Origin: a virus
IMG/VR virus record: IMGVR_UViG_3300022602_003849
Coordinates: 1-46,346 of that record
DNA: 46,346 nt
Strand: one strand, 5' to 3'
Below, in pieces: positions 24,388-43,527 of this stretch. The first letter of the stretch is position 1; each line of letters opens with the position of its first letter. The translations under genes were made by a program, and so were the position numbers. Under the pieces are notes generated by a model. That model was not told the origin of the DNA. It worked only from the letters and a program-made list of their open reading frames with translations, and did no database searches.

Positions 24388-24888
24388 TCTCCAGCTGACA
24401 ACCTGATCCAGATAGTCCTTGGTCCAGCGATCATAATAATGTAGCATCTTGAGCTTCCTGCTGGCTAGATCCAACTTGCTCAATCTCTGCATCATTAGCA
24501 AATTATATCTCCCGTTGTTGAAACTGAGCCCTAGCTGTTGTTCTGGCACCGACTTGTGATCATCTAGGAAAACTAGATCGCGTGGCATGTATTCCTGATT
24601 TACTGCATCCATCAGCGACCAGAGGCTATCTGGTGTGATAGTGTCGGGCAGTATGAATACCTGCACATCGACACTGTCATCCCAGGCCTCAGCAGCTGCA
24701 ATTATCTCTTGGAGCGGATCATTGCCAACCGTTTGGAATCTGACCTTACCATCCAGATAGGCTTTACGTGCGAACGGGCACTTGCTAAGCCCGCCCAGCT
24801 GCTCATGGGGCACGCTGAGATCTTTTACTATCCAATCTATTAGATATGATTCAGCTGCCGCATGATTCATGTTACATGATCCTGTCAT
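24373..24888 (-). CDS. Hypothetical protein, 171 aa
   Basis: A soluble protein with [16 protein letters not shown] early on, then [13 protein letters not shown], a strand [10 protein letters not shown] and LVFLDDHKS near the middle, ending in a basic helix ([20 protein letters not shown]). The CPFA and ILPD pattern is reminiscent of DUF1415-like proteins, but I cannot confirm that. The start is taken at 24888 because the ATGA overlaps the sigma factor stop, indicating coupling; an internal ATG at 24870 is an alternative. It is the last gene of the sigma operon. Confidence 0.68.
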
Positions 24889-26363
24889 TGGTCTGTGATA
24901 GCACTGAGCAGGTCGCGGGCACGCTGTGGATTCTTCAACCGGCTCAGTGCCTTGTTTTCAATCTGACGCACACGCTCACGAGTCACGTTAAAGCGGTTAC
25001 CGATCTCCTCCAACGTGTATTCACGCATGGTACCGATACCGAAGCGCATGCGCAGCACCCGCTCTTCTCTGCTGCTGAGACCTTCTAGGATCTCGCTGAT
25101 CACTTCGTTGACCTCAGATTTTGCAATCTGCTCAAAGGCATTCTCGGCTTCGGTATCCTCGATGAGGTTGCCCAGCTTGCCTTCTTCCTCGTCGCCCACT
25201 GGCGTCTCCAGCGAGATTGGATCCTTGGCTACTCGCAGTGTGCGATTGATCTTATCCACGTCACAGCCCAAGATCTTGGCCAGCTCTTCATTGCTGGGAT
25301 CTCGTCCAGTTACGAACACATGTTCTTTGGTCGCCTTCTGTATCTTCTTCAGCGTATCAAGTACATGCGACGGGATGCGTATGGTGCGATTGCTTTCTGT
25401 GGCTGCCTTGATGATGGCCTGCCGGATCCACCAAGTAGCATAAGTGCTGAAACGATAACCCAGCTGCCACTTGAATTTCTCCACGGCTTTGAGCAAGCCG
25501 ATGTTGCCTTCTTGTATCAGGTCCAGCAGCTGGCCTCCGTTGTTGTTTTGGTTGTACTTCTTAGCAACCGAGATCACCAAGCGCAGATTGGCCTTGGTCA
25601 TGGCTGCGATTGCTTCATCCTTGATCTTGGCCTGATGCCGCAGCACACGCACCGCAGTCCGCAGTTCTGCTACAGGCAATCCCGCTTGATCAGCCTGCTC
25701 CTGCATCATGCCTACCCAGTTGCCGATCTCGTTGGCTTTCTGCTTGAGCTTGTCCCAGCTCTTGCCCCTGGTGCCCTGTAGCCAGTGCATGTCCTCATGA
25801 CCAACATAACGTTCAAGGAAATCATTTCTATCTATACCACAATCAAGCGCCATGCGCATCAATGCACCGTCGCCTTCCAAGAGTCGCTTGTTGGTATCCT
25901 GCAGTCGTTCCATGATCTGTCCGATGCTAACCGGCAGCAGATGCAGCTCGTTAAATGCCGCTATAAGGTCATCCTTGGCTGCTTTCTCAGTAGTATCGCT
26001 GAGATATTGAGCACAAAGCTCGCGCACGCCGTTCAGCTGCACTTGAATATCATCGCTGAGGTTACCATCTTCGTCGCTTTCCAGATCAAATACCTCGTCA
26101 ATTGCTTTATTGCCCTGTTGGATCTCGCCTATCCACGCATCAATGGTCTGCACGGTCATTGGCACAGCAAATAGCGTGTCCATGATGGTCTTCTTGCTGC
26201 TTTCGATGGTCTTGCTGATCTCAACTTCTTTGGCGTGATTTAACAGCGGGGTCTTGCCAACTTCCTTGAGATACAAGCGAACTGGATCCTGTGATCCGCC
26301 ATCTGCTGCTAGCTTGATCTTGCCGTCACCTGACAATTTCGCTTTAGTTGTTGCTTTAGCCAT
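24885..26363 (-). CDS. RpoD-like sigma-70 factor
   Basis: A 492-residue sigma factor with region 1.2 ([16 protein letters not shown], ~26-41), a long non-conserved region (~60-250), region 2 ([12 protein letters not shown] to TIRIP, ~259-330), region 3 and region 4.2 with TRERVRQIE (~460-468). Region 1.1 is missing. Region 4.2 keeps the Arg, Glu and Gln residues that read the -35 TTGACA. In region 2.4 (WWIRQAI, 311-317) Gln315 matches E. coli Gln437, but the Thr440 position is Ile318; region 2.1-2.2 has a small insertion ([11 protein letters not shown]). It should replace or compete with host sigma on RNA polymerase. AAGGGG precedes the ATG. Phage sigma factors are usually short; one this long is unusual. 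Confidence 0.9.
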
Positions 26364-26725: not shown

Positions 26726-28099
26726 ATGGCAGATAGACAGCGAATAGATGAACTAGCTCCCCTCATGGACTCAATCAGTCCAACTTTCTGCATGGCCAAG
26801 TGGCATCACACTACAATATATCTACACACTGGCGAGACACACAGCTGCTACCATCCAGCTCCGCATGCCATAGATATCAAACGTATAGGCATGAACCCAT
26901 CTGCACTGCACAACACTGAATACAAGAAGAGCGAGCGCAGGCAGATGATGGCAGGTGGCAAACCACCCGGCTGTGACTACTGCTGGAAGATCGAGGACAT
27001 GGGTCCTGAGTACGTCAGCGACCGGCACATACGCAACAGCACCATCTATCGTCCAGAACGCTTGGAAGAGATCCGGCAGCGTGGTGCCAGCTTCGACGTC
27101 AAACCAGAATACGTGGAGATCAGCTTTGGCAACGAGTGCAATTTCAAATGCGGATATTGCCATCCCAAGAGCAGCAGCAAGTTCTATAACGAGATCCGAG
27201 ACCACGGCCCCTACACCAGTGTCAAGAATCATCGCTGCGACATAGACTGGATGACGATCTATGAAGAAGATGGTAATCCCTTCGTGGATGCTTGGTGGCA
27301 GTGGTGGCCGCAGATACGCGACACCGTGAACATCATGCGTGTCACGGGTGGCGAACCCCTACTGCACAAGAGCACATGGAAGCTGTTGGATGATCTACTT
27401 GAGAATCCCATGCCCAATCTGGAGCTGAACATCAACAGCAATCTGGGAGTCAAGCCCATACTGGTGGAGCGCATGAGCCGCAAGGTCAGAGAGCTCATGG
27501 ACAGTGGCTGCATCAAGAGCTTCAGCCTGTTCACCAGCTTGGACACCTGGGGTCCGCAGGCAGAATACATACGCACAGGGTTGGACTTGGCAATCTGGGA
27601 ACAGAACCTGGACACTTACATGAGATTGAGCGGACAGATAGTCAGCTTCATGATCACGTTCAATGCGCTGAGCGTGCCCAACTTCCAGAGCCTGCTGGCC
27701 AAGCTGCTGGAATGGCGTGCTCGTTACGCACCCGCAGATGATCCCAGACCCAAGATCCGCAATGTGCGATTTGACACGCCCTATCTCAGGGAACCTCTGC
27801 AGTATGACATCAACATACTGCCCAAGGCAGAATTCATGCCCTACATGCACTCAGCGCTGGCATTCATGGAAGCGCATGAAGCCGACGAAGACAAGCAGGC
27901 ATTTGGAAGTTTGGAAGTAGACAAGTTCCGCAGAGTGGTTAAGTACATGGAGACTACCAACTATGATGCTGACAAGCTGTTGGAAGGTCGCAGGGATTTC
28001 CATGCTTGGTTTACAGAGATTGACAAACGCAGGAACACCAATTTCTGCAGTGTCTTTCCAGAATTGTCTCAATTTTTTCAAGCATGCGGGCAGACATGA
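26726..28099 (+). CDS. Twitch-type radical SAM enzyme
   Basis: A 457-residue protein and first gene of the island. The radical-SAM cluster motif CNFKCGYC gives Cys138, 142 and 145, and VTGGEP (~205) contacts SAM. The N-terminal twitch-like region has Cys22, Cys41, Cys83 and Cys86 (FCMAKW, CDYCW), expected to bind an auxiliary cluster. The C-terminal third is specific. It generates a 5'-deoxyadenosyl radical; the substrate is unknown, although enzymes with this N-terminal layout often act on peptides or bound sugars. It overlaps the next gene by 4 nt (ATGA). Confidence 0.87.
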   Translation: MADRQRIDELAPLMDSISPTFCMAKWHHTTIYLHTGETHSCYHPAPHAIDIKRIGMNPSALHNTEYKKSERRQMMAGGKPPGCDYCWKIEDMGPEYVSDRHIRNSTIYRPERLEEIRQRGASFDVKPEYVEISFGNECNFKCGYCHPKSSSKFYNEIRDHGPYTSVKNHRCDIDWMTIYEEDGNPFVDAWWQWWPQIRDTVNIMRVTGGEPLLHKSTWKLLDDLLENPMPNLELNINSNLGVKPILVERMSRKVRELMDSGCIKSFSLFTSLDTWGPQAEYIRTGLDLAIWEQNLDTYMRLSGQIVSFMITFNALSVPNFQSLLAKLLEWRARYAPADDPRPKIRNVRFDTPYLREPLQYDINILPKAEFMPYMHSALAFMEAHEADEDKQAFGSLEVDKFRRVVKYMETTNYDADKLLEGRRDFHAWFTEIDKRRNTNFCSVFPELSQFFQACGQT

Positions 28100-30582
28100 T
28101 CAGTAATCTTTTGGCAAACGGAAACCATTTCTGCATGGCACCTTGGGTACACATGCATTTCTGGCCCAATGGTAACGTGATCCCTTGCTGTGTCAGTGAC
28201 ACACGCACACCAGTTGGCAATACCAATTCCAACACGCTAGAAGAGATATGGAATGGATCAGACATGAGGCAGCTGCGCCTCAACATGCTAGCTGATGTTC
28301 CCAGTGCTATATGCTCACGCTGCTATGACCAGGAAAAATCCAATGTTTATACACTTAGGCGGCATCTCAACGAAGCATATGCTCATCATCAACATCGAGC
28401 AGCAACTACCATAGCGGATGGTACTGTACCAGAGGTGAACATGGCTTATCTGGACGTGCGATTCAGCAATATCTGTAACCTACGCTGCCGTTCATGCTGT
28501 CACGATCTCAGCAGTAGTTGGTATGACGACTGGAAGGTCATGCATCCGGAGTATGACCAGCCTCGCATACTCAACATCAACAAGAGTGGCGACTTTTGGT
28601 CTCAGCTGCTGCCATATCTTAACCAAGCTGAGGAAGTATACTTTGCTGGCGGCGAAAGCCTGATGACAGAAGAACACTATCAGATATTAGACCATTGGAT
28701 AGCCACTGGTCACACCAAGGTGCGCATACGCTATACTACCAACTTCACAGTGCTGGACTACAAGAAGCGAGATCTGTTTGAGCTGTGGAAGCATTTTCCA
28801 AACATCGCCGTGACAGCTAGCCTTGATGCAAGTGGCAAGCGGGGAGAGTATCTGCGCAAGAACACAGTGTGGGACAGCATCCTAGAAAATCGCAGGCGCA
28901 TGCTCAGAGAAATACCTCATGTAGAATTCCATATCACGCCAACCGTGAGCTTGATGAATGTGCAGCATCTACCAGACTTTCACAGAGAATGGATAGAGCT
29001 GGGGCTGCTTGAACCAGATAATGTGCGCATCAACATACTCGAATTGCCGGAACACAGCAGCGTCAAGACCTTGCCAGCCGGGCTCAAAGATAAGGTTAGG
29101 ACACGTTTGGGACAACACATGGATTGGTTACGTACCCTTGCAGTCAAACAAGACAGTCTTGATGCCTGGCAGAGCATCTTGAATGTCATGGACAGCGAAG
29201 ACTATAGCCATCATCTCAAGGATTGGTACAAGGACACTGCCAAGCTCGACCAGCTGAGGAATGAAAACATTTGGACTGTTTTCCCTGAGCTCAGAGAACT
29301 CAATCCCAGTTTCTGTAGCCTACCTTGGGTAAATCTCAATACCACTCCCATGGGACAGTGCAAGCTCTGCTGCAACATCAGTGACTTCAAGGTGATGTAT
29401 GCACAAGGCGACGAAAGAAATGGCAAAGTCAAGCGAGTGTTCAATTGGGGCGCTGATGATATTGAAAGCATATGGAACAGCATCTACATGGTAGACGTGC
29501 GCACTCACATGCTGGAAGGACAACAGATAAAGGATTGCGGCGAATGTTATGCCAGTGAATCTATCGGCGCAAAGAGTGCACGGCAGGCAGCCAACGACAA
29601 ATTTCAAATCAAAGATCCGCAACCAAAAGCCAAATCATTGCCAATAAGCCTTGAGCTGAGGCTCAGCAACAGGTGCAATCTAACCTGTGTATCGTGTTGG
29701 AGTGGTAGCAGTCATAGCATTGCGGCTGAAAGACAAACAGCACTGGCAGCAGATGATATGCCAGCTTGGTTACATGCAGAATGGAACAATGATATCAGCA
29801 TAAACTTTGACCGTGCTCGTGGGTTTGATAGCGATATCAATTATATAAATCAACCTATGAGCATGGAAAATTTCCTTGCAGTGGCACCGACCTTGGAGCG
29901 CTTATACATCACAGGTGGTGAACCCACCATGGATGCCAACATATATGCCTATCTTGAAGCACTGGCAGATTGTGGAAACACCCAATGCCATGTGAGCTTT
30001 ACTACAAATTGTACACTGTGGAACGAAAAGCTGATGAATGCTCTCAGTAAATTCCCTCACAACGAAATACAGCTAAGCATTGATGGGCATGAAGACATGG
30101 ATGAGTATCTAAGATATCCAACCAAATGGCCAGATGTACACTATAATGTGGAACGATACATGACAGATTCTCGCGTCGATACGCTGCGTATCTTCACTGT
30201 TTACAGTGCTATTAATGCAGCACAGCTAGCACCGCTGTTGCACTATGTCATAAACACTGCCAACAGGTTGAGCCGCAAGGTGATATGGTGGCCTATACTG
30301 CTGACCTATCCCAGCTATCATCGTGTACAGATCCTTGAAGCTCACACACGCAGCAAGATAGCATCGGATCTAGAAGCTGCAATGCTTGATCAAACGAGAT
30401 GGCACGAGGCCTATTGTGATCATCGACATGGTCTTGACCAAGTGCTATTGGCTTTAAAGGATCCCTGCGACGACAGTGCTGCTGATAATAGGTTGCGCCT
30501 GATCCAGCATCTGGATACCCTGGATAGGATAAGGAATCAAAACTGGCGGCAACAGCTTCCATTATTAAGTGAGGTCATATGA
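28096..30582 (+). CDS. Double radical SAM protein, two twitch modules
   Basis: An 828-residue fusion of two complete modules. Module 1 has FCMAPWVHM and PCC near residues 12-32, CSRC at ~73, the cluster motif CNLRCRSC (Cys127, 131, 134) and FAGGES. Module 2 begins at residue ~406 with FCSLPWVNL, then LCC and CGEC, the cluster motif CNLTCVSC (Cys527, 531, 534) and ITGGEP. Each should bind one radical cluster plus an auxiliary cluster. Two active sites in one chain suggest successive steps on one substrate. The ATG at 28096 overlaps the previous stop; ATG 28084 is an alternative. Module 1 has GGES instead of the usual GGEP. Confidence 0.88.
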   Translation: MISNLLANGNHFCMAPWVHMHFWPNGNVIPCCVSDTRTPVGNTNSNTLEEIWNGSDMRQLRLNMLADVPSAICSRCYDQEKSNVYTLRRHLNEAYAHHQHRAATTIADGTVPEVNMAYLDVRFSNICNLRCRSCCHDLSSSWYDDWKVMHPEYDQPRILNINKSGDFWSQLLPYLNQAEEVYFAGGESLMTEEHYQILDHWIATGHTKVRIRYTTNFTVLDYKKRDLFELWKHFPNIAVTASLDASGKRGEYLRKNTVWDSILENRRRMLREIPHVEFHITPTVSLMNVQHLPDFHREWIELGLLEPDNVRINILELPEHSSVKTLPAGLKDKVRTRLGQHMDWLRTLAVKQDSLDAWQSILNVMDSEDYSHHLKDWYKDTAKLDQLRNENIWTVFPELRELNPSFCSLPWVNLNTTPMGQCKLCCNISDFKVMYAQGDERNGKVKRVFNWGADDIESIWNSIYMVDVRTHMLEGQQIKDCGECYASESIGAKSARQAANDKFQIKDPQPKAKSLPISLELRLSNRCNLTCVSCWSGSSHSIAAERQTALAADDMPAWLHAEWNNDISINFDRARGFDSDINYINQPMSMENFLAVAPTLERLYITGGEPTMDANIYAYLEALADCGNTQCHVSFTTNCTLWNEKLMNALSKFPHNEIQLSIDGHEDMDEYLRYPTKWPDVHYNVERYMTDSRVDTLRIFTVYSAINAAQLAPLLHYVINTANRLSRKVIWWPILLTYPSYHRVQILEAHTRSKIASDLEAAMLDQTRWHEAYCDHRHGLDQVLLALKDPCDDSAADNRLRLIQHLDTLDRIRNQNWRQQLPLLSEVI

Positions 30583-31550: not shown

Positions 31551-32701
31551 CCAACACTCGATGCTCACTGCCGTGGCAAAGTCTAAGCGTGGACAATCAA
31601 GGTCGCAGCAGGATCTGTTGCAACAGCGATGCACATTACAGAGGTAATGTTCACTATAAATTAGCAGATTGCAGCACCGTGTCTGAAGCTATGAACACAC
31701 CCTATCACAAATCTGTGCGACAAAGCATGCTGCAAGGTGAGCGCCACGAAAGCTGCAAGAAGTGCTGGGACATGGAGGATAGCGGCGGTCGCAGTTTCAG
31801 GCAGATATGGAACGAGATTCTGCCACAGACAGACGAAATCACGCCTCAGTATCTTGATATCACGCTGGGCAACAAGTGCAATTTAACCTGCAGGATGTGC
31901 AATGAAGTAAACAGCCACCTGTGGCACATAGACAATGCCAAATTAGGTTGGGTAACTGATACAGAACTCAGCAATACATTCTGGTTTGAGGATGAAGTTA
32001 CCAAAGATCTACTGATGAACGCAGCTCACAGTGCCTCTCACATAAACTTCCTCGGCGGAGAACCACTGATAGTAGGCGAACAAGTTGCATTGTTAGAACG
32101 CTGCATAGAACTTGGCCGTGCAGATCAAATACAGCTCAGTTATAACAGCAACATGACCGTGCTGCGGCCTCGTCAGATGGAGCTTTGGCAGCATTTTAAA
32201 GGTGTGAATCTCTGCGTGAGCATTGACGGTGTTGGCACACAAAATGATTACATACGACAGAACAGTCGTTGGTCTGATATATTGCATAATCTGGAGCTGA
32301 TACATCTAAATTGTGCTAACGTGCGCATGACAGTGCATGCTACCTTTGGAGTTTACAATGCGCTGTCCTTGCATGAGTTGGTGGCGTGGAGCGATGCTCG
32401 GCCATGGTTTGGCGGGCGTTTACCTTGGTTAAACATGGTGTATCGCCCTCATAACCAAGATCCGCGCTGCCTACCCCAAGAGGTCAAACAGCTGATAGCG
32501 GCAAGGATCCGAGCCTGTATCAAATATCGCAATTTTGACCAAAGCTATGATAGTTATATTGGAGCAATCAATCACATGATGCAGCCCAGTATAAGCCCAA
32601 CCCATTGGCAGGAATTCTGGCAAGCGGTTGATCAATTGGATGCCTTCAAAAAGACCAATATAGCAGAATGTTTACCAGAACTGGCGAGATTCAGACCATG
32701 A
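31547..32701 (+). CDS. Twitch-type radical SAM enzyme
   Basis: A 384-residue protein. The twitch-like N terminus has CSLPWQSLS, Cys24-Cys25 and CKKCW (70-74); the radical-SAM motif CNLTCRMC gives Cys111, 115 and 118, followed by FLGGEP. The layout closely matches the genes at 6163 and 26726 and module 2 of the double protein, so these arose by duplication. The start at 31547 is chosen because it overlaps the previous stop (ATGA); the frame is open to 31508. The substrate is unknown. Confidence 0.87.
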   Translation: MTNTRCSLPWQSLSVDNQGRSRICCNSDAHYRGNVHYKLADCSTVSEAMNTPYHKSVRQSMLQGERHESCKKCWDMEDSGGRSFRQIWNEILPQTDEITPQYLDITLGNKCNLTCRMCNEVNSHLWHIDNAKLGWVTDTELSNTFWFEDEVTKDLLMNAAHSASHINFLGGEPLIVGEQVALLERCIELGRADQIQLSYNSNMTVLRPRQMELWQHFKGVNLCVSIDGVGTQNDYIRQNSRWSDILHNLELIHLNCANVRMTVHATFGVYNALSLHELVAWSDARPWFGGRLPWLNMVYRPHNQDPRCLPQEVKQLIAARIRACIKYRNFDQSYDSYIGAINHMMQPSISPTHWQEFWQAVDQLDAFKKTNIAECLPELARFRP

Positions 32702-33954
32702 CTGTGCATTGGGTTTTTGATGATCCACAGCGGTTCATAACCATGAGCGCTTGTGAACACACAGTGTATAGCCCAGATGGACAAAACAACGACGGGCGTT
32801 GGAACATCAGCAACATACATTGGTATTGGCGCAACGCACAACAATGGTATAGCCGAGATGTATCTTGGCAAGCACATGGACTGGATGATAGGCCAAACCG
32901 CTATGTATATCCCATAGGGGCATTCAGCGGGCCCACTTGGTGGTCGGGCCTGCCCAGCAATGGTTGGGGTCATCCCAGCATGTTTGAAATAATACCTGCA
33001 GTGGTCCTAGAGGATGCGCGACAGGGTAAAGTGCTGCTGTTGATTGATAATCTCAATGAAGGTTTTCATATGCCCATGCTGTGGCGTTTCTTGCACAGTG
33101 AATGCAGCAGGCTTGGTATAAATCCACGCTGCCTAGCATATGTGCATAGTAACACCAAAGACGAACAAGCTTATAACATATGGTGCGATGATCTGGGAAT
33201 CTCAGATAGGTTCCATAACATAGCGTTCTGCCACCTCATGTACCAGCAGCGTGTGGCTTTACCAACCTACGGTACTGTGAACTGGGAGCAGCAGCTATCT
33301 CACAAGTCTCACAATATTGACAGCATAAGAATATATAATTGTCTCAACAGGCGCTCGCATCGCCACAGAGAATATCTATTCCTAAGATTGCTGGAGATGG
33401 ATTTGGTTAAGCACGGTTTGGTCAGCTGTGATAAACTGCACTGGGACTGGACTGACAGTGATATCAAACCCATGACCATGGTCAGGGCACAAGGACTCTT
33501 ACCCATAGTGGTTGATGATCACGATTTTTACAACAACAAAGCCATGCATGGCAACCCTGACATCTATCTCAACAGCTGGTTAAGTGTGATCACAGAGACG
33601 CATGCCAATGATGATCCCTATCATTTATTTGTTAGCGAAAAAGTATGGAAACCCATCTATTTCATGCAGCCTTTCATGACGCTGGGCAACCTAGGCTGTG
33701 ATCAACAGCTGCGCGAATGGGGCTACCAAACATACTGGGACATGGATCACCTGTCGTTTGAAAGCAAAGTATCTCAGATATGCCTCGAATTAAAGCGCAT
33801 GAGGCAGATGAGTCAAAATCAACTCATGGATTGGTATCAGAGATTGGAAGAAAAATGCCAACATAACAAAACTCTGTTTATGAAGCAAGACTTCTTTGAT
33901 AGCCCAGCAGCTGACCGCATTGTCAAAGCCTATGTAGGTTTATTGCCATGCTGA
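32698..33954 (+). CDS. Glycosyltransferase-like protein, paralogue 1 of 4
   Basis: A 418-residue protein. The shared C-terminal core reads SVITETHAND, then FVSEKVWKPIYFMQPFMTLGN and LREWGYQTYWDMD. An upstream element NCLNRRSHRHREYLFLRLLE is also shared with the paralogues at 33948, 39167 and 43509. The SEKVWKP plus HPFM-x-x-G pattern resembles the donor-binding half of GT-B or GT10-like enzymes, so a nucleotide-sugar transferase is the best guess; no direct proof exists. The start overlaps the radical-SAM stop (ATGA). The terminal DESYD found in the other three copies reads DMDHL here. Confidence 0.6.
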   Translation: MTVHWVFDDPQRFITMSACEHTVYSPDGQNNDGRWNISNIHWYWRNAQQWYSRDVSWQAHGLDDRPNRYVYPIGAFSGPTWWSGLPSNGWGHPSMFEIIPAVVLEDARQGKVLLLIDNLNEGFHMPMLWRFLHSECSRLGINPRCLAYVHSNTKDEQAYNIWCDDLGISDRFHNIAFCHLMYQQRVALPTYGTVNWEQQLSHKSHNIDSIRIYNCLNRRSHRHREYLFLRLLEMDLVKHGLVSCDKLHWDWTDSDIKPMTMVRAQGLLPIVVDDHDFYNNKAMHGNPDIYLNSWLSVITETHANDDPYHLFVSEKVWKPIYFMQPFMTLGNLGCDQQLREWGYQTYWDMDHLSFESKVSQICLELKRMRQMSQNQLMDWYQRLEEKCQHNKTLFMKQDFFDSPAADRIVKAYVGLLPC

Positions 33955-35213
33955 ATTTTGTCTTTGAACGGTTTGAAGACACACCAATGCGTGCACGCAC
34001 TAACATGGCTGCCTGCACTGACCGTATCGCAGGCAATGACCACAGCAGTGATTGGCCTCGCTTCAGTGAAAGTGGTTTGCTAGCTTATCTATCTGCTGCT
34101 AACTTTGAATTTTCTGAGTGCACCTTGGGTGATAGGCCTGCCCGCTATGTATATGCTACCAGCACATACAATGGTCCGCATTATTGGGCAGGCTGGTCTG
34201 GTAACGACCAGGGCTTTAGAAGCCTGTTTGAATTCATACCCGATGTGGTCTGCAATGATTGCAGATCAGGACACGCAGTGTTGCTCATAGATCAACTCAT
34301 GGAAGGTTATAGCCACGATAGTCTATACGAATTCTTCCATGCTGAGCTAGAAAGACTATCACTGCCAGCCAGATGTTTGATCTACGTGAGCGGCAATCAC
34401 AGAGAATCTCAACGATATCACAGATGGTTGACCACACAAGATCAGAAACAGCCCATAGTGATGCTGAGCCTGCCACACTTAGAATTTATAAGCCGTGGTT
34501 TTTTCCAAAAACAAATTCAGCTAAATTGGCAAGATTATGCTCATCATCTCAACCAGTCTACGACCAGACCACTGTTATATAATTGTCTGAATCGTGTGAA
34601 CCGATATCATAGGAATCTCATGTTCATGCATCTGTGGCAGGCCAACCTCTTGGAGCACGGCCTTGTGAGCTGTGAGAAACTGGACTGGGCTTGGCATTTG
34701 GCACAGAACGGATGGAGCCATGAACAGATCGCAGCAGCCAAATCATGTTTGCCGCGCATCATAGATTTTGATGATTTCAATAACAATCCAGCCATGGATA
34801 TCGCACAGCATATCTATCAGCACACAAGGATTAGCGTGATCACCGAAACCCTGGGCGACGATGCAGCAGATCAGTTGTTTGTCACAGAGAAACCGTTCAA
34901 GAGCATATACATGCTGCATCCGTTCATGGTGCTTGGACAACAGGGACATCTAGCACAGCTGCGCGACTGGGGATATGAAACGTTTGGTGATTTTTGGGAC
35001 GAGAGCTACGATCACATGCCCAACATGGCACAGCGTGCAGCAGCTATAACTGCAAACCTTTGCCAGCTCAGAGACAACAGAGATCTCTATGAGCTGCATC
35101 GCGATCTGAGACATATTTGTGAGCATAACCAAAACAATTTCCTCAGTCGGTCAGCTGATACACCATATCTCAGGACGTTGATACAGGCATTGTATGCTGC
35201 GTTGGATAACTAG
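33948..35213 (+). CDS. Glycosyltransferase-like protein, paralogue 2 of 4
   Basis: A 421-residue protein that is clearly paralogous to its neighbour. It shares the N-terminal half (RYVYATSTYNGPHYWAGW against RYVYPIGAFSGPTWWSGL), NCLNRVNRYHRNLMFMHL, SVITETLGDDAADQLFVTEK, HPFMVLGQQGHLAQLRDWGY and DFWDESYDH. The family is probably GT-B-like (inference from the TEK and HPF-x-x-x-G pattern). It overlaps the previous gene by 7 nt and ends 3 nt before the B12-type radical-SAM gene. The N-terminal region binds the unknown acceptor in this model. Confidence 0.62.
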   Translation: MLNFVFERFEDTPMRARTNMAACTDRIAGNDHSSDWPRFSESGLLAYLSAANFEFSECTLGDRPARYVYATSTYNGPHYWAGWSGNDQGFRSLFEFIPDVVCNDCRSGHAVLLIDQLMEGYSHDSLYEFFHAELERLSLPARCLIYVSGNHRESQRYHRWLTTQDQKQPIVMLSLPHLEFISRGFFQKQIQLNWQDYAHHLNQSTTRPLLYNCLNRVNRYHRNLMFMHLWQANLLEHGLVSCEKLDWAWHLAQNGWSHEQIAAAKSCLPRIIDFDDFNNNPAMDIAQHIYQHTRISVITETLGDDAADQLFVTEKPFKSIYMLHPFMVLGQQGHLAQLRDWGYETFGDFWDESYDHMPNMAQRAAAITANLCQLRDNRDLYELHRDLRHICEHNQNNFLSRSADTPYLRTLIQALYAALDN

Positions 35214-35216: not shown

Positions 35217-37136
35217 ATGAGCTTGACCAAAGTATACATGGCACAGATCAACAACAGCTTTGGAGGGCATGCATTCTTGCCTTACAGCGTTGGATTGCTT
35301 TGGGCACATGCTGTGTCTAATCCTGATATCGCTGCTAGCCATGAGCTGGGAGGACTGTTGTTTCTCAGAGAACCATTGGACAAAGCCATGTCAAAGATAG
35401 TGGATCCTGACGTTTTAGCACTCAGCTGCTATCTATGGAATTGGAACTACAACATGGCTTTGGCCAGACTAGTCAAAATCTCATATCCACGCTGCGTGAT
35501 TGTACTCGGAGGGCCGGAAGTTCCCAGCAGCGGATTCGTCGATGACGAAATCTTGATAGCCGATTATTTGGTGCACGACGAGGGTGAGGTGACGTTCACA
35601 GAGTTGCTGAGGATGATCAGAGACGGCAGCGATCCCAGTACAGTGCTTGGAATAAGCTATCGCAAAGATGGTACGCCACGCAAGACTGCACAAAGACCGA
35701 GATTATCTGATCTGTCTGTGATACCTAGCCCATATCTCACCGGGGTGTTTGACCAACTCATGCAGCAGCATTCAAACATTGCATGGCATGCCAGCCAAGA
35801 GACACACCGAGGTTGTCCATACAGTTGTACCTTCTGCGATTGGGGCAGTGCCGTGTACACAAAGATACGCCAGTTTGATCAGCCACGACTGATCAACGAG
35901 TACGAATGGTTTGGCACCAAACAGATCGATCTGCTCTATAACTGTGATGCCAACTACGGCATCCACAAGCGGGATTTGTATCTCACTGCGGCCATGGTGG
36001 ATGCCAAGCGCAGGCATGGCGGATATCCCAACAAGTTCCGTGCAGCTTATGCCAAGAAGAGCGACGACAAGGTGTTTGATATAGCCAGCATGTTAAACAG
36101 CGCCGGTATGAGCAAGGGTGTTACACTGAGCTTGCAGAGCCTAGATGATAACACCCTGGAGTTGATCAAGCGCAAGAACATTGCCATGGCTGATTTTCAA
36201 AAGTTAGCAGCCAGATACCGCTCAGCCGGAATACCAACATACACTGAGCTAATAGTTGGCCTGCCTGGTGAAACGCTGGCCACTTACACAGCTGGTATTG
36301 AACGTGTGCTACAAGGCGGGCAGCATGACAATCTCAACATCTATCCCTGCATGCTGCTGCGCAACTCAGAGATGGCTGATCCCGCGCACATGGCCACACA
36401 TGGCATGGTCAAGCTGCGAGTGCCGCTCATGGACAACCACAGCAGCACGCGACCCGACGAGATACCAGAGTTCAACGACATAGTGATAGCCACTGCCAGC
36501 ATGCCGCACGCAGATTGGCAGCAGGCCTGGCGCCTCAGCTGGATCATTCAGTCGCTGCACTGCCTGGGACTGACACAGTACTTGGCCATGGACTACTGGC
36601 GGGTGCATGGCAGCTACGTGGAGTTCTACCATCGCCTGCTGCGTGCCTACCGAGGCACGCCCACGCTGCTGGGACAGCAGATCGCTCGAGCTGATCTCAG
36701 CCTTGAGCGCATGCTGTCGGGCGCTGCGGATCTGGGACAGCACGACAGCAGGTTCGGTGACGTCAACTGGCCAGTGGAAGAGCTGACCTTCCTGCAGCTG
36801 CGCACCGAGGCAGCCCAGTTCTATGCACAGCTGGTACCGTTCCTGCGAGCCTGGATGACAGATGATCACATTGCCGATGCCCTACGCTTCCAGCAGGCTT
36901 GGATCCTGGGTCCAGACCATCATCAGCACGACCTGGTGTGCCTTGACCATGACATACCACGGATGATAGCCGCAGCGTTGCAATCCAAGCCCGAGACAGT
37001 GATCAAACAGCGCACAGAGCTTTGGTTTAGGTCAGATAACTATTACACCTGTCCACAGACCTGGGCACGACAGATCGTGTGGTATGGTCGCAAGCAGGTG
37101 CTGCACAAGAGGAGAGCAGAACATGTGGATGGTTGA
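35217..37136 (+). CDS. B12-binding-type radical SAM enzyme (YgiQ-like)
   Basis: A 639-residue protein. The N-terminal ~190 residues form a Rossmann-like B12-binding-type domain (ALSCYLWNWNYN, VIVLGGPEVPS, VHDEGEVTF); the DxHxxG motif of classical cobalamin binders is missing, as in many relatives. The radical-SAM motif CPYSCTFC gives Cys200, 204 and 207, with HRGC just ahead and LIVGLPGE near residue ~348. It is a paralogue of the gene at 41566. Such enzymes often methylate or rearrange unreactive carbons. The last codons (ARQIVWYGRKQVLHKR) recur at 38952-39065 in a remnant. Composition becomes more GC-rich in its second half. Confidence 0.85.
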   Translation: MSLTKVYMAQINNSFGGHAFLPYSVGLLWAHAVSNPDIAASHELGGLLFLREPLDKAMSKIVDPDVLALSCYLWNWNYNMALARLVKISYPRCVIVLGGPEVPSSGFVDDEILIADYLVHDEGEVTFTELLRMIRDGSDPSTVLGISYRKDGTPRKTAQRPRLSDLSVIPSPYLTGVFDQLMQQHSNIAWHASQETHRGCPYSCTFCDWGSAVYTKIRQFDQPRLINEYEWFGTKQIDLLYNCDANYGIHKRDLYLTAAMVDAKRRHGGYPNKFRAAYAKKSDDKVFDIASMLNSAGMSKGVTLSLQSLDDNTLELIKRKNIAMADFQKLAARYRSAGIPTYTELIVGLPGETLATYTAGIERVLQGGQHDNLNIYPCMLLRNSEMADPAHMATHGMVKLRVPLMDNHSSTRPDEIPEFNDIVIATASMPHADWQQAWRLSWIIQSLHCLGLTQYLAMDYWRVHGSYVEFYHRLLRAYRGTPTLLGQQIARADLSLERMLSGAADLGQHDSRFGDVNWPVEELTFLQLRTEAAQFYAQLVPFLRAWMTDDHIADALRFQQAWILGPDHHQHDLVCLDHDIPRMIAAALQSKPETVIKQRTELWFRSDNYYTCPQTWARQIVWYGRKQVLHKRRAEHVDG

Positions 37137-37233
37137 CTGGCTGCTGGCACCTTACAGGCGCTGGCAGCAACATCGGCGCTATAGGCAACGCCTGGCAGAG
37201 CTGCGCAAGCGCGATCCGTTCATATACCGATGA
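37123..37233 (+). CDS. 36-residue small protein, copy 1
   Basis: The product begins MWMVDWLLAPYRRWQQHRRY and ends ELRKRDPFIYR: a short hydrophobic N terminus followed by a very basic helix. The ATG lies inside the end of the radical-SAM gene and the stop overlaps the next ATG (ATGA), so it is coupled on both sides. A second copy at 39052 shares about 21 of 36 residues in the same order. Two conserved copies behind the same gene end argue strongly that it is translated. It could be a membrane-surface peptide or an accessory of the radical-SAM enzyme (inference). Confidence 0.72.
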   Translation: MWMVDWLLAPYRRWQQHRRYRQRLAELRKRDPFIYR

Positions 37234-38042
37234 ACAACCGGAGGCTCATAGCATTCGGAGACAGCTGGACCTGGGGCAGCGAGCTGCGCGATCCCCAGAT
37301 ACCGGGTTCGCGCGAGGACTTTGACCCCCGCGACGATCAATACCGCTTGGATCATGCATGGCCCAGCTGCCTCGGTCGTGCGCTGAACAGGGATCAGGTG
37401 ATCAACCTGGGTCGACCTGCCTGCAGCAACGACAGCATACTGCGTGCGCTCACTGAGTGGCTGGCAGGTTCGGGACACCTGCAGGGCCATGGCAACAGCC
37501 GTGACTTGGTGTGCATAGGTTGGACCAGCCCTGAGCGCAGGGATTTTTGGTTCCACGACGTGGATCAACCTGGCTGCGAAGACAGAGGTTGGCTGACCAT
37601 GTACCCCATGTGGACTCACACCTACAGGCACGCAGCCATCAACAGGTTCAGCAGGGAGTACGTGCAGCACTGGTGGCATGCCGCGGAATACATGCATCGC
37701 TACATCAACACCATACACCGCGCACAGCAGCTGCTGGATCATGCGGGCGTGGACTACTGCATGTTCCAAGCCATCTACCACTATCATGCGGTGCTGATAG
37801 AGCAGTGGAACGACCAGCTGTACCAAGCGCAGCACGAGCAGAGCATCAGCGACGCTGATCGCATGATATGGCAGCTGATAGATGCTGGTCGGTTCATGCA
37901 CAAGGACCAGCCCATGGCCACCTTCCACAACCACATACTGGCCCATCGCCCTGCCAGCCAAGTGCTGCTGATATCGCATCCCAACGCGCTGGGCCACCAG
38001 ATATGGGCTGACCACATGCGAGCATGGTTGTCCAGCAGATGA
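37230..38042 (+). CDS. SGNH-family hydrolase or esterase
   Basis: A 270-residue protein. The N-terminal block I motif FGDSWTWG has Ser12 as nucleophile; an Asn-rich block II-III region follows (NLGRPACSND), and the C-terminal SHPNALGHQIWADHM has the expected His of block V. SGNH enzymes remove or transfer acyl groups on sugars and other esters. The role fits trimming of a modified glycan made by the neighbouring enzymes. The start overlaps the small ORF stop and the end overlaps the next gene (ATGA). It lies in a GC-rich segment. Confidence 0.8.
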   Translation: MNNRRLIAFGDSWTWGSELRDPQIPGSREDFDPRDDQYRLDHAWPSCLGRALNRDQVINLGRPACSNDSILRALTEWLAGSGHLQGHGNSRDLVCIGWTSPERRDFWFHDVDQPGCEDRGWLTMYPMWTHTYRHAAINRFSREYVQHWWHAAEYMHRYINTIHRAQQLLDHAGVDYCMFQAIYHYHAVLIEQWNDQLYQAQHEQSISDADRMIWQLIDAGRFMHKDQPMATFHNHILAHRPASQVLLISHPNALGHQIWADHMRAWLSSR

Positions 38043-38788
38043 GAGCCGCGGTGCTACTGCGTGGCCACAGGCGCACCTGGGACCTCTGCCGCGATGCCAT
38101 GGTACGCACCATGGATCAGCTGTGCCTGACCACTCACTACTACATATGCCACTGGCGCAGCGGCAGCAACCCATGGCCCATGCGATCGCATGCGGGCATG
38201 CACATCAAGCATGCTGAGCTGACCGGTCCAGAGCACTGGGACCTCGAGGATTCCATGAACTGCTTCACGGCCCCCAGCTGGCAGGCACAGCGCTGCTATC
38301 GTGCCATGATGGCCACTGGCATCAGCTACGACTTGGTCATGGACACCAGATCAGACATATGGCTGGAGCCAGCAGCAGCCCAGCCTCAGCTGCCTCAGCC
38401 GGGCGAGATACACAGCACCAGACTGCTGGACCCATGGCACGACAGCAGCATGCCGGGCATGGAGGACCACCTGTTCGTGGCAGATCCTCAGACCATGGGC
38501 CTGTGGTGCCAGAGGCACCTGCATCCCCGCTATGACATCAGGTACAACCACTGCATACTCTGTAACCACTGCAGCGAGCAGGGCTTGGTGCCTCGCCAGA
38601 TAGACTGGCTGGTTTCGCGCTTCGTGCGCCCCAATGCCGCTGCCCATCAGCCGCTGGATGCCCAGCAGGTCCACCTCGCACACATGGACTGGAACCGCAT
38701 GACACGCGAGCTGCGCCTGGCGCACTGCGCAGCCGCAGGCATAGACCACACAGAGTATGACGCTCCCTATCATCTTGGCACCGCGTGA
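38039..38788 (+). CDS. Glycosyltransferase-like protein
   Basis: A 249-residue protein. It has the same signature as the gene at 12462-13160: an N-terminal AVLLRGHRRTW and a later YDLVMDTRSDIWL. The acidic TRSD may bind metal and nucleotide sugar, as in GT-A enzymes; this is a motif-level guess. The start overlaps the SGNH gene (ATGA); an in-frame ATG at 38024 is less likely. It is GC-rich and Cys/His/Trp-rich (HCILCNHCSEQG). It is followed by a deletion scar rather than an intact gene. Confidence 0.6.
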   Translation: MRAAVLLRGHRRTWDLCRDAMVRTMDQLCLTTHYYICHWRSGSNPWPMRSHAGMHIKHAELTGPEHWDLEDSMNCFTAPSWQAQRCYRAMMATGISYDLVMDTRSDIWLEPAAAQPQLPQPGEIHSTRLLDPWHDSSMPGMEDHLFVADPQTMGLWCQRHLHPRYDIRYNHCILCNHCSEQGLVPRQIDWLVSRFVRPNAAAHQPLDAQQVHLAHMDWNRMTRELRLAHCAAAGIDHTEYDAPYHLGTA

Positions 38789-38844
38789 CATTTGCTGAAT
38801 CGCCACAGAGAGCCGCATAATTACACCATACACGGAGGACGGGC

Positions 38845-38946
38845 ATGCGAGTTGGTATGATAGGACTGGGCAAGCTGGGCTTGCCAGCAGCAGAGGCCAT
38901 GGCAGCAGTGCATGATGTCATGGGCCTGTGGTCGCCCGACCTGTGA
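38845..38946 (+). pseudogene. Truncated nucleotide-sugar dehydrogenase, N-terminal fragment
   Basis: After a good GGAGG ribosome-binding site an ATG opens a 33-residue frame: MRVGMIGLGKLGLPAAEAMA followed by AVHDVMG. It matches the first 27 residues of the intact enzyme at 40403 (VIGLGKLGLPVAEAMARSHDVMG), including the GLGKLGLP nucleotide-binding loop. After that the frame changes to LWSPDL and stops. It is a remnant of a second dehydrogenase gene. The NAD-binding loop alone cannot be active. Confidence 0.85.
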
Positions 38947-38951
38947 GAGTG

Positions 38952-39065
38952 ATGTTTGCAGCAGACAACTATTACAGCAACAGCAGTGATTGGGCTAGGC
39001 AAATAGTCTGGTACGGTAGAAAACAAGCATTACACAAGAGGAGGATAGACTATGTGGTTGATTAG
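38952..39065 (+). pseudogene. Truncated B12-type radical SAM gene, C-terminal fragment
   Basis: The 37-residue frame contains DNYYSNSSDWARQIVWYGRK and ALHKRR, matching the last ~33 residues of the gene at 35217 (SDNYYTCPQTWARQIVWYGR and VLHKRR). The rest of the gene, some 600 codons, is absent. It begins 5 nt after the dehydrogenase fragment stop. Together the two fragments form a deletion scar of a dehydrogenase-radical-SAM pair. The next small gene starts inside its end, exactly as in the intact copy. Confidence 0.85.
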
Positions 39066-39162
39066 TTGGTTACTTACACCTTGGCGCCGTTACAAGCAGC
39101 ATCGGGCTTTCAAGAAACGCATGGCAGAACTGCGCCGCCGCGATCCATTCATCTACAAGTGA
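39052..39162 (+). CDS. 36-residue small protein, copy 2
   Basis: The product begins MWLISWLLTPWRRYKQHRAF and ends ELRRRDPFIYK. It has the same length and layout as copy 1 at 37123: hydrophobic start, basic helix and RDPFIY end. Despite the loss of the gene in front of it, this copy has no stop or frameshift, so it is probably still under selection. GAGGA just upstream could serve as its ribosome-binding site. It lies 4 nt before the glycosyltransferase-like gene. Confidence 0.72.
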   Translation: MWLISWLLTPWRRYKQHRAFKKRMAELRRRDPFIYK

Positions 39163-39166
39163 TCGC

Positions 39167-40378
39167 ATGCCATCGTTGATTCGGGCTCGTCCGCCTAGCA
39201 TAGTCTATGAAGACCTTGACAATCGTCGCAATCTGCTAGCCTGTAACCAGTGGGCCACTGAAGGCATTAGGCCCTTGCATGATTCTTGGGTGCATGCACA
39301 GCTTACCACAGCTTGGCCCGCTTACAGCGTGGCCAATCGGCCAAGGCACTATGTGTTTCCCATTGGCTGTTTCAACAATCCCCAGATGTGGGCTAAGGAA
39401 CCTTTTGCCTACGTACCAGAATCCGTTATGCGTGATGCGCAGCATGGTCGAGTGCTGTTGATATTTGACCAGAGCCAAGAAGGCAACGCAGATCCTGACC
39501 TCTGGTCGTGGTTCTATGCCACTGCGCACAGGTGGCAGATCAATCCTTCACAGATCATCTACATGACCAGTGATCATTTAGCCGAAAAATCACATATTTC
39601 TTGGTGTGATTTCAACGCAGTAAATCTACAGGTTACTGTGATTAGCACCCTGTTTAATCTACACGCCATCACTGACATGCTGCGCAAGCGAGGCGTTGAG
39701 CCCGTGCACTACGATCAATGGCTGCAGGCCAAGCATAGTGGCACCAGCCTGTACAACTGCCTCAACAGGGTCACACATGCCCATCGCCGTTGGCTGTTCC
39801 TCAAGCTGTTTGAGCAGGGTTTGGTGCCGCAGGGGTTGATCAGCATGGACAGCTTCACTGACGTGCCTGCGCTGCCAGATGGCACGCTGTTGGACGATAG
39901 CCTAGTGCGCCGCGTGCAGGGTCTGCTGCCCATGGTAGTAGACAAGGCTGATTTCACAGAGAACCACTTCAACGATCTCAATCCAGACATCTATCTGCGC
40001 AGCTGGGTCACAGTGGTCACTGAAACCTACGTTGATGATGCGCAGCTGCTGATAGGCGAGAAGGTGTTCAAGCCCATGCTGTGTTCTAGCCCCTTCATGA
40101 TACTGGGCAATCCTGGCACGCTTGCACGCTTGCGCGAGCTGGGCTTTGAAACCTTTGGCATGCTCTGGGACGAAAGCTATGATCAGTTGCATACCACTGC
40201 TAGGATGGATGCTATGGTTGCACAGCTGCAGCAGCTGAACCAGATCACAGATCTGGCACAGCACTTCAGGCGAGCAGAATCTGCGCTGCGACACAATCAT
40301 GCGCTGGCCTGGCAGCTGTGGACTGGCAGCAGAGATTATCAGAGGTTACTTGCTATTTGGCGCGATTTGGCAGCATAA
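39167..40378 (+). CDS. Glycosyltransferase-like protein, paralogue 3 of 4
   Basis: A 403-residue protein with the family signatures: RHYVFPIGCFNNPQMW near residue 60, NCLNRVTHAHRRWLFLKLFE, VVTETYVDDAQLLIGEKVFKPM, SPFMILGNPGTLARLRELGF and MLWDESYDQ. It belongs with the genes at 32698, 33948 and 43509. Function is inferred as GT-B/GT10-like sugar transfer. It follows the small ORF copy 2 by 4 nt and precedes the intact dehydrogenase by 24 nt. Confidence 0.62.
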   Translation: MPSLIRARPPSIVYEDLDNRRNLLACNQWATEGIRPLHDSWVHAQLTTAWPAYSVANRPRHYVFPIGCFNNPQMWAKEPFAYVPESVMRDAQHGRVLLIFDQSQEGNADPDLWSWFYATAHRWQINPSQIIYMTSDHLAEKSHISWCDFNAVNLQVTVISTLFNLHAITDMLRKRGVEPVHYDQWLQAKHSGTSLYNCLNRVTHAHRRWLFLKLFEQGLVPQGLISMDSFTDVPALPDGTLLDDSLVRRVQGLLPMVVDKADFTENHFNDLNPDIYLRSWVTVVTETYVDDAQLLIGEKVFKPMLCSSPFMILGNPGTLARLRELGFETFGMLWDESYDQLHTTARMDAMVAQLQQLNQITDLAQHFRRAESALRHNHALAWQLWTGSRDYQRLLAIWRDLAA

Positions 40379-40402
40379 AGTAAGATGTAAAAGGATGATG
40401 CA

Positions 40403-41569
40403 ATGAAAGCAAGCGTTATAGGTTTAGGCAAGCTGGGCTTGCCAGTAGCAGAAGCAATGGCTAGATCACACGATGTCATGGGCATAGATGTCAAGCCAGT
40501 CAGCACACAGTTGGTCAGGCAGGGCAACATGGAGCAGATAGTTGTCCACGGTGACATCATATTCATTGCTGTGCAGACACCACATGATCCAGCTTACGAC
40601 GGCAGCGCGCCAACCAGCCATTTGCCTAACAAGGATTTTGATTACAGCACGGTGATCTCTGTGTTGGATCAATTGGACAAGCTGGACATTGACGGCAAGA
40701 CCGTGGTTCTGATCAGCACTGTGCTGCCAGGTACCACTCGCAGGCAGCTAGCCAAGCATCTAACCAAGGCCAATCTCGTGTACAATCCCTATCTCATCGC
40801 CATGGGCACGGTGGCCTACGACATGGTCAATCCCGAGATGATCATGATAGGCACGGCCACTGGCCGCGATGACATGATCGTGCAGCAGCTGATCAGCTTC
40901 TACAAGCCACTGATGCAGAACAATCCCCGCACGGTGGTTGGCACCTGGGAAGAGATGGAAAGCACCAAGATATTCTACAACACCTTCATATCGGCCAAGC
41001 TCAGCCTGGTTAACATGATACAGGATGTAGCCGAGCGCATAGGCAACATGGACGTTGACGTGGTTGCCAAGGCACTAGCCGACAGCACCTATCGCATCAC
41101 TGGTCCTGCTTACATGAAACCCGGCATGGGCGACGGTGGACCCTGCCATCCGAGAGACAACATCGCGCTGCGCTACATGGCAGAGAAGCTGAAACTAGGC
41201 TACGACCTCTTTGACAGCATCATGCGTGCTCGCGAGGTGCAGGCAGAGAACATCGCACGCGAGCTGGTCAGCCACCGGCTGCCAGTGGTGATACTGGGCA
41301 AGAGCTTCAAGCCAGGCGTGCCCTACACTGACGGCAGCTACGGCATGTTGGTAGGACACTATTGCCAGTCTCTGGGAGCTGATGTATCCTACGATTCTGT
41401 GTCATCCGAACCTGCAGCCTATCTACTAGGACATCAGGGCTATTACACCCAGCAGCTAGATGAGATGGCACAGGGCAGCGTGGTGGTGGATCCGTGGCGT
41501 AGCAGCAAGGTCCCAGATGGTATCATCTACATACCCTATGGTAATACCAGAGAAATTCCAAGCGTATGA
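40403..41569 (+). CDS. UDP-glucose/GDP-mannose-type dehydrogenase
   Basis: A 388-residue nucleotide-sugar dehydrogenase. The N-terminal Rossmann motif is GLGKLGLPVAE (7-17), followed by FIAVQTP and LISTVLPGTT, an active-site helix with FYNTFISAKLSLVN, and the catalytic Cys248 in GGPCHPRDN (usual motif GG-S-C-F-P-K-D). The C-terminal domain carries ILGKSFKPGVPYTDGS for the nucleotide sugar. It oxidises a nucleotide hexose to the uronic acid with two NAD+. AAAGGATGATGCA precedes the ATG. Its stop overlaps the radical-SAM start (ATGA). A truncated second copy lies at 38845. Confidence 0.88.
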   Translation: MKASVIGLGKLGLPVAEAMARSHDVMGIDVKPVSTQLVRQGNMEQIVVHGDIIFIAVQTPHDPAYDGSAPTSHLPNKDFDYSTVISVLDQLDKLDIDGKTVVLISTVLPGTTRRQLAKHLTKANLVYNPYLIAMGTVAYDMVNPEMIMIGTATGRDDMIVQQLISFYKPLMQNNPRTVVGTWEEMESTKIFYNTFISAKLSLVNMIQDVAERIGNMDVDVVAKALADSTYRITGPAYMKPGMGDGGPCHPRDNIALRYMAEKLKLGYDLFDSIMRAREVQAENIARELVSHRLPVVILGKSFKPGVPYTDGSYGMLVGHYCQSLGADVSYDSVSSEPAAYLLGHQGYYTQQLDEMAQGSVVVDPWRSSKVPDGIIYIPYGNTREIPSV

Positions 41570-43527
41570 CCAAACGTCTCAACCTTGTGCAGCCAAATTT
41601 CGCACAAGGGCCACGGGAGCTCAATGCCTATTATCTACCCTACAGTGCAGGGGTGCTGTGGAGCTATGCCAAGAGCATTCCAACTATCGCTGATACCTGG
41701 GAACTGGACAGGCTGGCTTGGCGTAGAGATCCAATTGATCGTGTGTACAAGCAGTTAGCAGAATGTGACGTCATTGGTTTCAGTACCTATGTCTGGAACA
41801 AGAATTATAATTACGAATTAGCCAGGCGTATCAAGGATTACAATCCCAGCTGCACCATAGTGTTCGGTGGTCCAGAACCTCCAGTTGATCGCGAAGATAT
41901 ATTCCAGCTGCATCCCTATATCGATGTTGTGGTCAAACACGAAGGCGAGAAGGCCTTTGCTGATATCCTGGAGCATGGAGTAGGCCCATGGGTCAGAGGC
42001 ATAATCGAAAACGATGGCGGTTGGCCGCAGTCCTGGGGAGAACCGCAGCGCATAAAACAGCTGGATCACATACCAAGCCCCTACACAACAGGCGTCTTTG
42101 ATAGGATAATGGCTGACAATCCTGAAATCATATGGAATGCCACGCTGGAGACCAACAGAGGATGTCCTTATCAATGCACGTTCTGCGATTGGGGTAGCTT
42201 AACCTACAACAAGATCAAGAAGTTTGATCTACAGCGCGTGTTCAATGACATAGAATGGATAGGCGAGAATGAGTGCGATTGGATGAGCATAACTGATGCC
42301 AACTTTGGCATGTTTGTAGCTCGCGATGATCTCATAGCCGAAAAGGTCATAGACACGCAGGATCGATTGGGCTATCCTCGTCGCATGGGATTGAGCTGGG
42401 CCAAGAATCAAAAGTCAGAAGTGGTCAAGCTGGCAAAGAAACTAACCACCAGGGGTTTTAACAACGGGCTCACGCTCAGCGTGCAGAGCTTAGACGATCA
42501 TGTGCTGACCGAGATCAAGAGACAGAACCTGGAGATCAATAAGCTTAACGAAGTGTTTGATCTGTGCCAGCGAGAAGGCGTGACCGTGAACACTGAGCTA
42601 ATACTTGGGTTGCCAGGTGAGACTGTCAACAGCTGGCGGCGTAATGTCTGGGGTTTGTTGGAAATAAACCAACACAGCGGCATAGAGTTCTTCCAGGCAC
42701 AGCTTTTGGAAAACGCAGAGATGAATCTCACGCAGCGTGAGGTACATGCTATTACCAGCATCGCAGTGTGCGATTACCTCAGCGGGAACGACGACGGTGA
42801 TGGTATAGCAGAATCTGTTGAAGTGGTTACCAGCACCCGGGATCTATCACTAGAAGACATGCTGGCCTGCCAGGAATTTAGTTGGTTCATCAACACCTGG
42901 CACATCAATGGCATCAGCCAATGGTACAGCAGATTCCTCAACAGATCGCTGGGCATCAGCTACGAGGAATTCTACACGGGTTTCCAAGCCTGGCTGCAAG
43001 ACCACGCTGATTGGTGGCGCAGTGAACGGCAATTGGTCATGGATGCCTATCGCAGTTGGATGACCACTGGCAGCATCAGCGTTGATCCCGTGGCAGGTGT
43101 GAAGATACACGGCTGGAACCTCATCCATCTCAGCAATCTACGCATGCATGCCCACAACAGCTACCAACAGTATCTTTCAGCCGTGGAGATCTACGCAGAG
43201 TCCGCCTATGGGCACCTGTTGGAATCCGCAGTGCCCGCAGATTCAATGATCAGGCCTCTGTTGGATATGAGAAAGCTTACCAATGCCTATGTGGTACGGT
43301 ATACCAGCATCACACAGTACCCCATGCAGGTACACACAGATAGCAACATCTTGGATTTCATCATATCCGAAAGAGACTTGATCTACAAGCAGGATCCCTA
43401 TCAATTGGATTTCCCAGAAGACAAGCGCATGAGCCTCACTGTTTTCATGCAGAACATCTATTATGCACGACGCCGTAATTTCGGCAAGGCACAGATGTTA
43501 CTGGGCCATCAGAGATCAGAAAAATAA
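41566..43527 (+). CDS. B12-binding-type radical SAM enzyme, second copy
   Basis: A 653-residue paralogue of the gene at 35217. The cluster motif CPYQCTFC gives Cys200, 204 and 207, at exactly the same positions. The N-terminal B12-type domain has VFGGPEPPVD and VKHEGEKAF and again lacks DxHxxG; LILGLPGETV lies near residue 347. Its C terminus (NIYYARRRNFGKAQML) is similar in kind to, but clearly diverged from, that of the first copy. It is coupled to the dehydrogenase (ATGA), suggesting that the nucleotide uronic acid or a derived glycan is its substrate (inference). The end overlaps the convergent gene by 19 nt. Confidence 0.86.
   Translation: MTKRLNLVQPNFAQGPRELNAYYLPYSAGVLWSYAKSIPTIADTWELDRLAWRRDPIDRVYKQLAECDVIGFSTYVWNKNYNYELARRIKDYNPSCTIVFGGPEPPVDREDIFQLHPYIDVVVKHEGEKAFADILEHGVGPWVRGIIENDGGWPQSWGEPQRIKQLDHIPSPYTTGVFDRIMADNPEIIWNATLETNRGCPYQCTFCDWGSLTYNKIKKFDLQRVFNDIEWIGENECDWMSITDANFGMFVARDDLIAEKVIDTQDRLGYPRRMGLSWAKNQKSEVVKLAKKLTTRGFNNGLTLSVQSLDDHVLTEIKRQNLEINKLNEVFDLCQREGVTVNTELILGLPGETVNSWRRNVWGLLEINQHSGIEFFQAQLLENAEMNLTQREVHAITSIAVCDYLSGNDDGDGIAESVEVVTSTRDLSLEDMLACQEFSWFINTWHINGISQWYSRFLNRSLGISYEEFYTGFQAWLQDHADWWRSERQLVMDAYRSWMTTGSISVDPVAGVKIHGWNLIHLSNLRMHAHNSYQQYLSAVEIYAESAYGHLLESAVPADSMIRPLLDMRKLTNAYVVRYTSITQYPMQVHTDSNILDFIISERDLIYKQDPYQLDFPEDKRMSLTVFMQNIYYARRRNFGKAQMLLGHQRSEK

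Follow-up and report, generated by a model that had tools for sequence, protein, structure and literature searches.

Gene organization of the locus

The window analysed here is the whole 46,346-nt stretch of the viral record IMGVR_UViG_3300022602_003849 (IMG/VR), and the genes of the locus described below lie on its plus strand. The locus starts with GTx428 (32668..33954), coding for a putative GT-B-like glycosyltransferase, and a second GTx paralogue, GTx421 (33948..35213). They are followed by rSAM1 (35217..37136), the left border gene, which encodes a predicted cobalamin (B12)-dependent radical SAM enzyme of the TokK/KedN5 kind, by sm1 (37123..37233), a 36-aa microprotein with the C-terminus RKRDPFIYR whose stop codon overlaps the next start in an ATGA, and by two cargo genes, an SGNH/DUF6071 hydrolase (37230..38042; PF19547, E 1e-17) and GT254 (38024..38788), a putative glycosyltransferase-like ORF. 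A dehydrogenase (DH) leader with the first 27 DH codons comes next (38789..38925; ATG at 38845), its short frame stopping at the TGA at 38946, and is joined at GGGC (38922..38925, a 4-nt overlap) to the 3' end of a second rSAM1 gene (~47 codons, 38922..39065). Further on are a second microprotein copy, sm2 (39052..39162; 36 aa, with a Shine-Dalgarno-like GAGGAGG upstream), the second cargo, GTx403 (39167..40378), the intact nucleotide-sugar dehydrogenase gene, which is the right border gene (40403..41569; PF03721/PF00984), and rSAM2 (41566..43527), coding for a second cobalamin radical SAM enzyme. The order from one radical SAM gene to the other (35217-43527) is the one that a previous sequence-only reading had described.

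Regarding predicted functions, rSAM1 aligned with TokK (7kdx) over residues 12-587 with E 5e-104; its match to NF033712 (E 2e-78) was under the cutoff, and against the NCBIfam KedN5 model rSAM1 and rSAM2 reached 264 and 241 for a cutoff of 700. The GTx403 model (pLDDT 86.5) had GT-B enzymes as best Foldseek matches (E 1e-5, with a modest TM of 0.41), which suggests a GT-B fold and a putative glycosyltransferase. GT254 gave no match in Pfam, NCBIfam or PHROG, and its structure model, of low confidence (pLDDT 54), was left uninterpreted. By analogy, a glycan-tailoring role is likely for a locus that carries a DH and a carbamoyltransferase.

Alleles of the island in related phages

Relatives were sought in viral contigs with rSAM1, DH and GTx403 as queries, and few close ones were found. 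They are designated A (contigs G001 and G002, 99.87% identical over 19.9 kb), B (G003) and C (G004, a 518-kb contig), W being the window. The order in A is GTx-rSAM1-sm-SGNH-GT254-DH, then four other radical-SAM stretches and a carbamoyltransferase; in B it is GTx-rSAM1-sm-GTx403-DH-rSAM2-GTx(reverse)-carbamoyltransferase, and in C it is GTx-sm-DH, with neither rSAM1 nor cargo. The interval between the small ORF and DH is hence occupied by SGNH and GT254 in A (A-type cargo), by GTx403 in B (B-type cargo), by nothing in C and by both cargos in tandem in the window, and these four are the only island states found. GTx421 is absent at the matching position in A, B and C, rSAM2 is present in B and has no counterpart in A, and alleles also differ among the relatives to the right of DH and elsewhere in the island. 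The claim that conserved borders surround swapped cargo is supported: in the comparison across related phages that went with it, the cargo changes from one phage to another while the two genes that enclose it stay the same; variable glycan genes are located between syntenic conserved genes of related phages, as in the host recognition clusters considered at the end. Among named phages, the only match was one to DH, of 68.7% over 9% of the query, in phage Bellamy.

The relatives also differ from the window outside the cassette region. The product of 28084-30582, an 832-aa protein, consists of two fused twitch-domain radical SAM units; the A contigs encode the two units separately, on either side of an rS_323 homologue. 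An ORF at 14689-15318, unmatched in both the A and the B contigs, has a weak similarity, below cutoff, to the group I intron endonuclease model TIGR01453 and probably encodes a homing endonuclease.

The scar and its joint

The ~220 nt from 38845 to 39065 form a scar in which the start of a DH gene is fused to the end of a gene of the rSAM1 type. The DH stub is 80% identical to the intact DH of the window over 66 nt, the rSAM end aligns with rSAM1 at residues 595-637 (E = 1.7e-12), and sm2, placed directly after the rSAM fragment, is a clear homologue of sm1; therefore, the repeats are not due to chance. Up to and including GGGC the sequence is identical to the A-type DH at 12 of 12 bases, after which only 1 of 12 coincides, and homology to the B-type rSAM1 tail starts at those same GGGC bases. 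No homology between the parents was visible at the joint beyond these 4 nt. Unrelated sequences sharing few bases are thus joined at 38922-38925, and ancestry changes there from A-like on the left to B-like on the right. The DH leader and the MRVGM start of the stub match A and not B, and the rSAM tail carries the pattern GPV..(R)PV.V.F, common to A and B and different from the window's own rSAM1. To judge from the bases on its two sides, the joint is an illegitimate (non-homologous) one.

Two other interpretations of the fused segment were rejected: a fusion protein across the scar, because the DH and rSAM frames differ, and an origin of the rSAM end from rSAM2, the two tails being unrelated. 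The repeated radical SAM end pointed out in the sequence-only reading is accordingly real as a repeat, but it derives from rSAM1 and not from rSAM2, whose C-terminus is unrelated. Likewise, the DH start and the rSAM end that had been taken as cassette borders are both present, but as fragments in different frames fused to each other, so that what looked like a pair of borders is a single scar. No other locus in the comparison had such fragments, which the window itself carries once, and an exact 30-mer across the junction had 0 matches in other viral contigs, the junction being seen in one contig.

Ancestry along the window

Almost everywhere along its length W has B as its nearest relative, the exception extending from GTx428 through GT254. 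The identity of W to B and to A is 92 and 85% for rS_457, 89 and 82% for the carbamoyltransferase gene carbT, and 87 and 74% for DH, where A and B share 74%. In GTx428, W is 43% identical to A and 42% to B, and A and B share 63%; the corresponding values for rSAM1 are 72, 71 and 77%. The small ORF sm1 is A-like (72%, versus 61% to B), and SGNH and GT254, 76 and 57% identical to A, are absent from B. On the other side of the scar, sm2 is 75% identical to B and 56% to A, GTx403 is 79% identical to B, and rSAM2 is 78% identical to B, its best A match (36%) falling in the rSAM1 of A. In bootstrapped distance quartets (1000 replicates) the grouping of W with B was supported by 967-1000 of 1000 replicates for rS_457, rS_832N, rS_323 and rS_397, the latter, which is the gene left of GTx428, reaching 1000/1000. 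The grouping had no clear support at GTx428, GTx421 (658/1000) and rSAM1 (160/1000), genes that were not strongly contrary to it either, and it was regained to the right of the scar, at DH (998/1000) and carbT (977/1000). The B-like affinity of both flanks and the discordance between them, found in quartets and identities alike, indicate that a foreign block most likely begins near 32.67 kb and extends to the scar. In the cargo, identity between the window and the A contigs is only 57-76%, and the donor itself lies outside the sampled contigs.

Base composition was also analysed. GC3 is 0.74-0.77 in SGNH and GT254, 0.40 in the rSAM tail and 0.47-0.52 in the upstream genes. A GC3 step within rSAM1, at ~36315, was reached in 1-2 of 500 shuffles and could correspond to a further crossover; as the left crossover of the block it was set aside, since the three-way identities keep the same affinity there.

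Two more changes of affinity were observed on the record. A full-length RpoD-like sigma factor gene (24885-26363, minus strand) has counterparts of 85-88% identity in the A and B contigs, and in its quartet A groups with B, contrary to the neighbouring genes. From position 1 to 3080 the window has 1 mismatch in 3080 nt relative to G003, and identity then falls to ~84% inside a collagen-like repeat gene; this switch at ~3080 could represent a recent exchange or an assembly switch.

The second of these bears on a possible chimera of two co-resident phages, produced by the assembler or by a chimeric read. An artefact of that kind would agree with a junction carried by a single contig and with another abrupt switch in the same contig, inside a repetitive gene. 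However, a simple join of A to B would leave an A-like left side, and here both flanks of the foreign DNA are B-like. Moreover, assemblers usually require a long shared k-mer, and the joined homologues share ~4 nt, far below the assembly k-mer, in a contig that contains no N. That the junction is an artefact is therefore unlikely.

Origin of the segment

The fragments, the sharp switch of homology, the B-like flanks around the discordant block and the alleles in relatives are all present in the DNA. We propose, with a probability of about 0.75, that the segment arose when two alleles of a hypervariable sugar-modification island recombined in a single illegitimate crossover, and that the product became fixed. 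The resident phage would have had the B-type order, rSAM1-sm-GTx403-DH-rSAM2, and, presumably during a co-infection, would have received a block of ~6.3 kb with the A-type order GTx428-GTx421-rSAM1-sm1-SGNH-GT254-DH start (about 32.67-38.925 kb). On its right side, the DH of this block, truncated after codon 27, would have been fused through GGGC to the resident rSAM1 at codon ~592; on its left side, the crossover would be near the border between rS_397 and GTx428, at a position that is not base-precise. A block may indeed enter by a homologous or homeologous event on one side and an illegitimate event on the other (PMC2327257), a mode of acquisition that fits this locus. The recombinant has an intact copy of every border gene alongside both cargos; therefore, the event was probably tolerated and widened the tailoring repertoire. 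The cargos would presumably serve in surface glycan tailoring, and their joint possession may have brought a selective benefit.

The same product would result from an internal deletion, if a tandem ancestor with a complete A-type DH followed by a B-type rSAM gene had lost the ~3 kb that lay between DH codon 27 and a point close to the rSAM end. Adjacency of DH and an rSAM gene does exist downstream in B, but the gene that adjoins DH there is rSAM2, whose tail is unrelated to that in the scar. As this route also demands an extra step and an ancestor absent from all relatives seen, we regard it as a minor possibility, of low probability compared with the crossover between alleles.

Cassette switching and recombination sites

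In the sequence-only reading the conserved borders were proposed to act as recombination sites in a locus similar to those of antigen variation. This part of the proposal was not supported. The only readable crossover joins DH codon 27 to an rSAM tail with GGGC alone in common; it is non-homologous and does not fall within homologous borders. The small ORF is conserved as a peptide and not as DNA, its codons varying freely, and a DNA-level recombination site within it was rejected. Each cargo is present in a single copy, silent copies are lacking, and the longest exact repeats are of 19 and 11 nt.

The geometry would permit an active, antigen-variation-like switch in which the two DH starts, or the two rSAM ends, recombine homologously: looping out the 1558 bp between the DH copies would yield the A order, and looping out the 1929 bp between the rSAM/sm copies the B order. 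Lambda Red is, in addition, able to recombine DNA diverged by 22% (PMC2327257). Nevertheless, the repeats are limited to 66 nt (80% identity) and ~195 nt (about 70%), with the exact runs given above; loss would run one way; silent copies are lacking; and the ten proteins examined at 33.9-46.2 kb of the window, which is part of a phage genome, include none in which a recombinase domain was recognized. Such a switch is very improbable, and the scar is a record of gene shuffling, not a switch.

The small ORF at the border

The small ORF ends in RDPFIYK or RDPFIYR in the window, in A, B and C and in many other phages, and the family was also present at loci L006, L035-L044 and L094-L374. Degenerate patterns gave at least 120 matches each in viral contigs, in forms with a TGA and with a TAA stop, and the TGA form was detected in one contig only of 84,980 species genomes. 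Among the matches listed, the gene that follows is a carbamoyltransferase in 84 of 116 cases (TGA) and 42 of 119 (TAA), and an SGNH hydrolase in 17 of 116 and 21 of 119, respectively. The frames of the small ORF and the next gene overlap or nearly touch; the ATGA overlap is in part a consequence of the TGA pattern, but tight spacing was also seen in the TAA set. The codons vary while the residues are constant, and therefore selection acts at the peptide level. The search pattern itself imposes D, P, F, I, Y and the last K, but K-15, E-11 and L-10, which are conserved as well, lie outside it. The small ORF belongs to no Pfam or PHROG family, it had no convincing match in named phages, where a low-complexity filter may hide some, and the strings RDPFIY, DPFIYK and DPFIYR were not found in any paper. 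It belongs to a large, phage-specific and possibly new family of microproteins.

As a guess, the microprotein could be a protein partner of the enzyme encoded after it. By extension, the interval from the small ORF to DH might be a recurrent acceptor of sugar-tailoring cassettes, in which the microprotein (RKRDPFIYK/R) works with whichever enzyme follows; we consider this idea tentative and rather doubtful. If true, modules would be exchanged downstream of a conserved protein partner. The border microprotein, unannotated in Pfam and PHROGs and widespread in viral contigs, is a concrete target for study.

Comparison with known systems

Among characterized enzymes, the closest to those of the locus are the TokK/KedN5 cobalamin radical SAM C-methyltransferases, rSAM1 matching TokK and both rSAM proteins scoring far under the KedN5 cutoff. 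At the level of the island, the pelagimyophage and cyanomyophage host recognition cluster (HRC) is a large hypervariable island with glycosyltransferases, and a UDP-glucose 6-dehydrogenase is one of the LPS genes of those phages; related genomes differ by added radical-SAM gene cassettes, and a glycan role has been argued for the pelagimyophage cluster (PMC7029224). The window resembles it in hypervariability, glycosyltransferases, DH and radical-SAM cassettes, a likeness in the gene content of a 46-kb fragment, and differs in that the point of a single crossover joining two cassette alleles is legible at single-base resolution.

Illegitimate exchange has also been proposed for the mosaicism of T4-related phages (PMC2993671). 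The non-homologous joining of modules between conserved genes is common to both cases, as a comparison of joint type and not an assignment to the T4 group, and in the window, beyond that case, both parental alleles are represented by relatives. The "ORFanage" of cyanophage S-PM2 is a plastic region proposed to gain DNA by illegitimate recombination and to lose it by deletion (PMC4503421); the deletion was observed in culture in S-PM2, whereas the gain in the window would follow from comparison. The way in which phages build mosaic loci for surface modification is as a rule deduced from the end products. In this locus the joint with its two fragments can be seen together with both parental arrangements and an empty allele, so that the claim of an illegitimate exchange with survival of intact functions is open to a base-by-base check. 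The locus is ordinary in kind, an instance of phage mosaicism in a hypervariable island, and unusually legible in detail.
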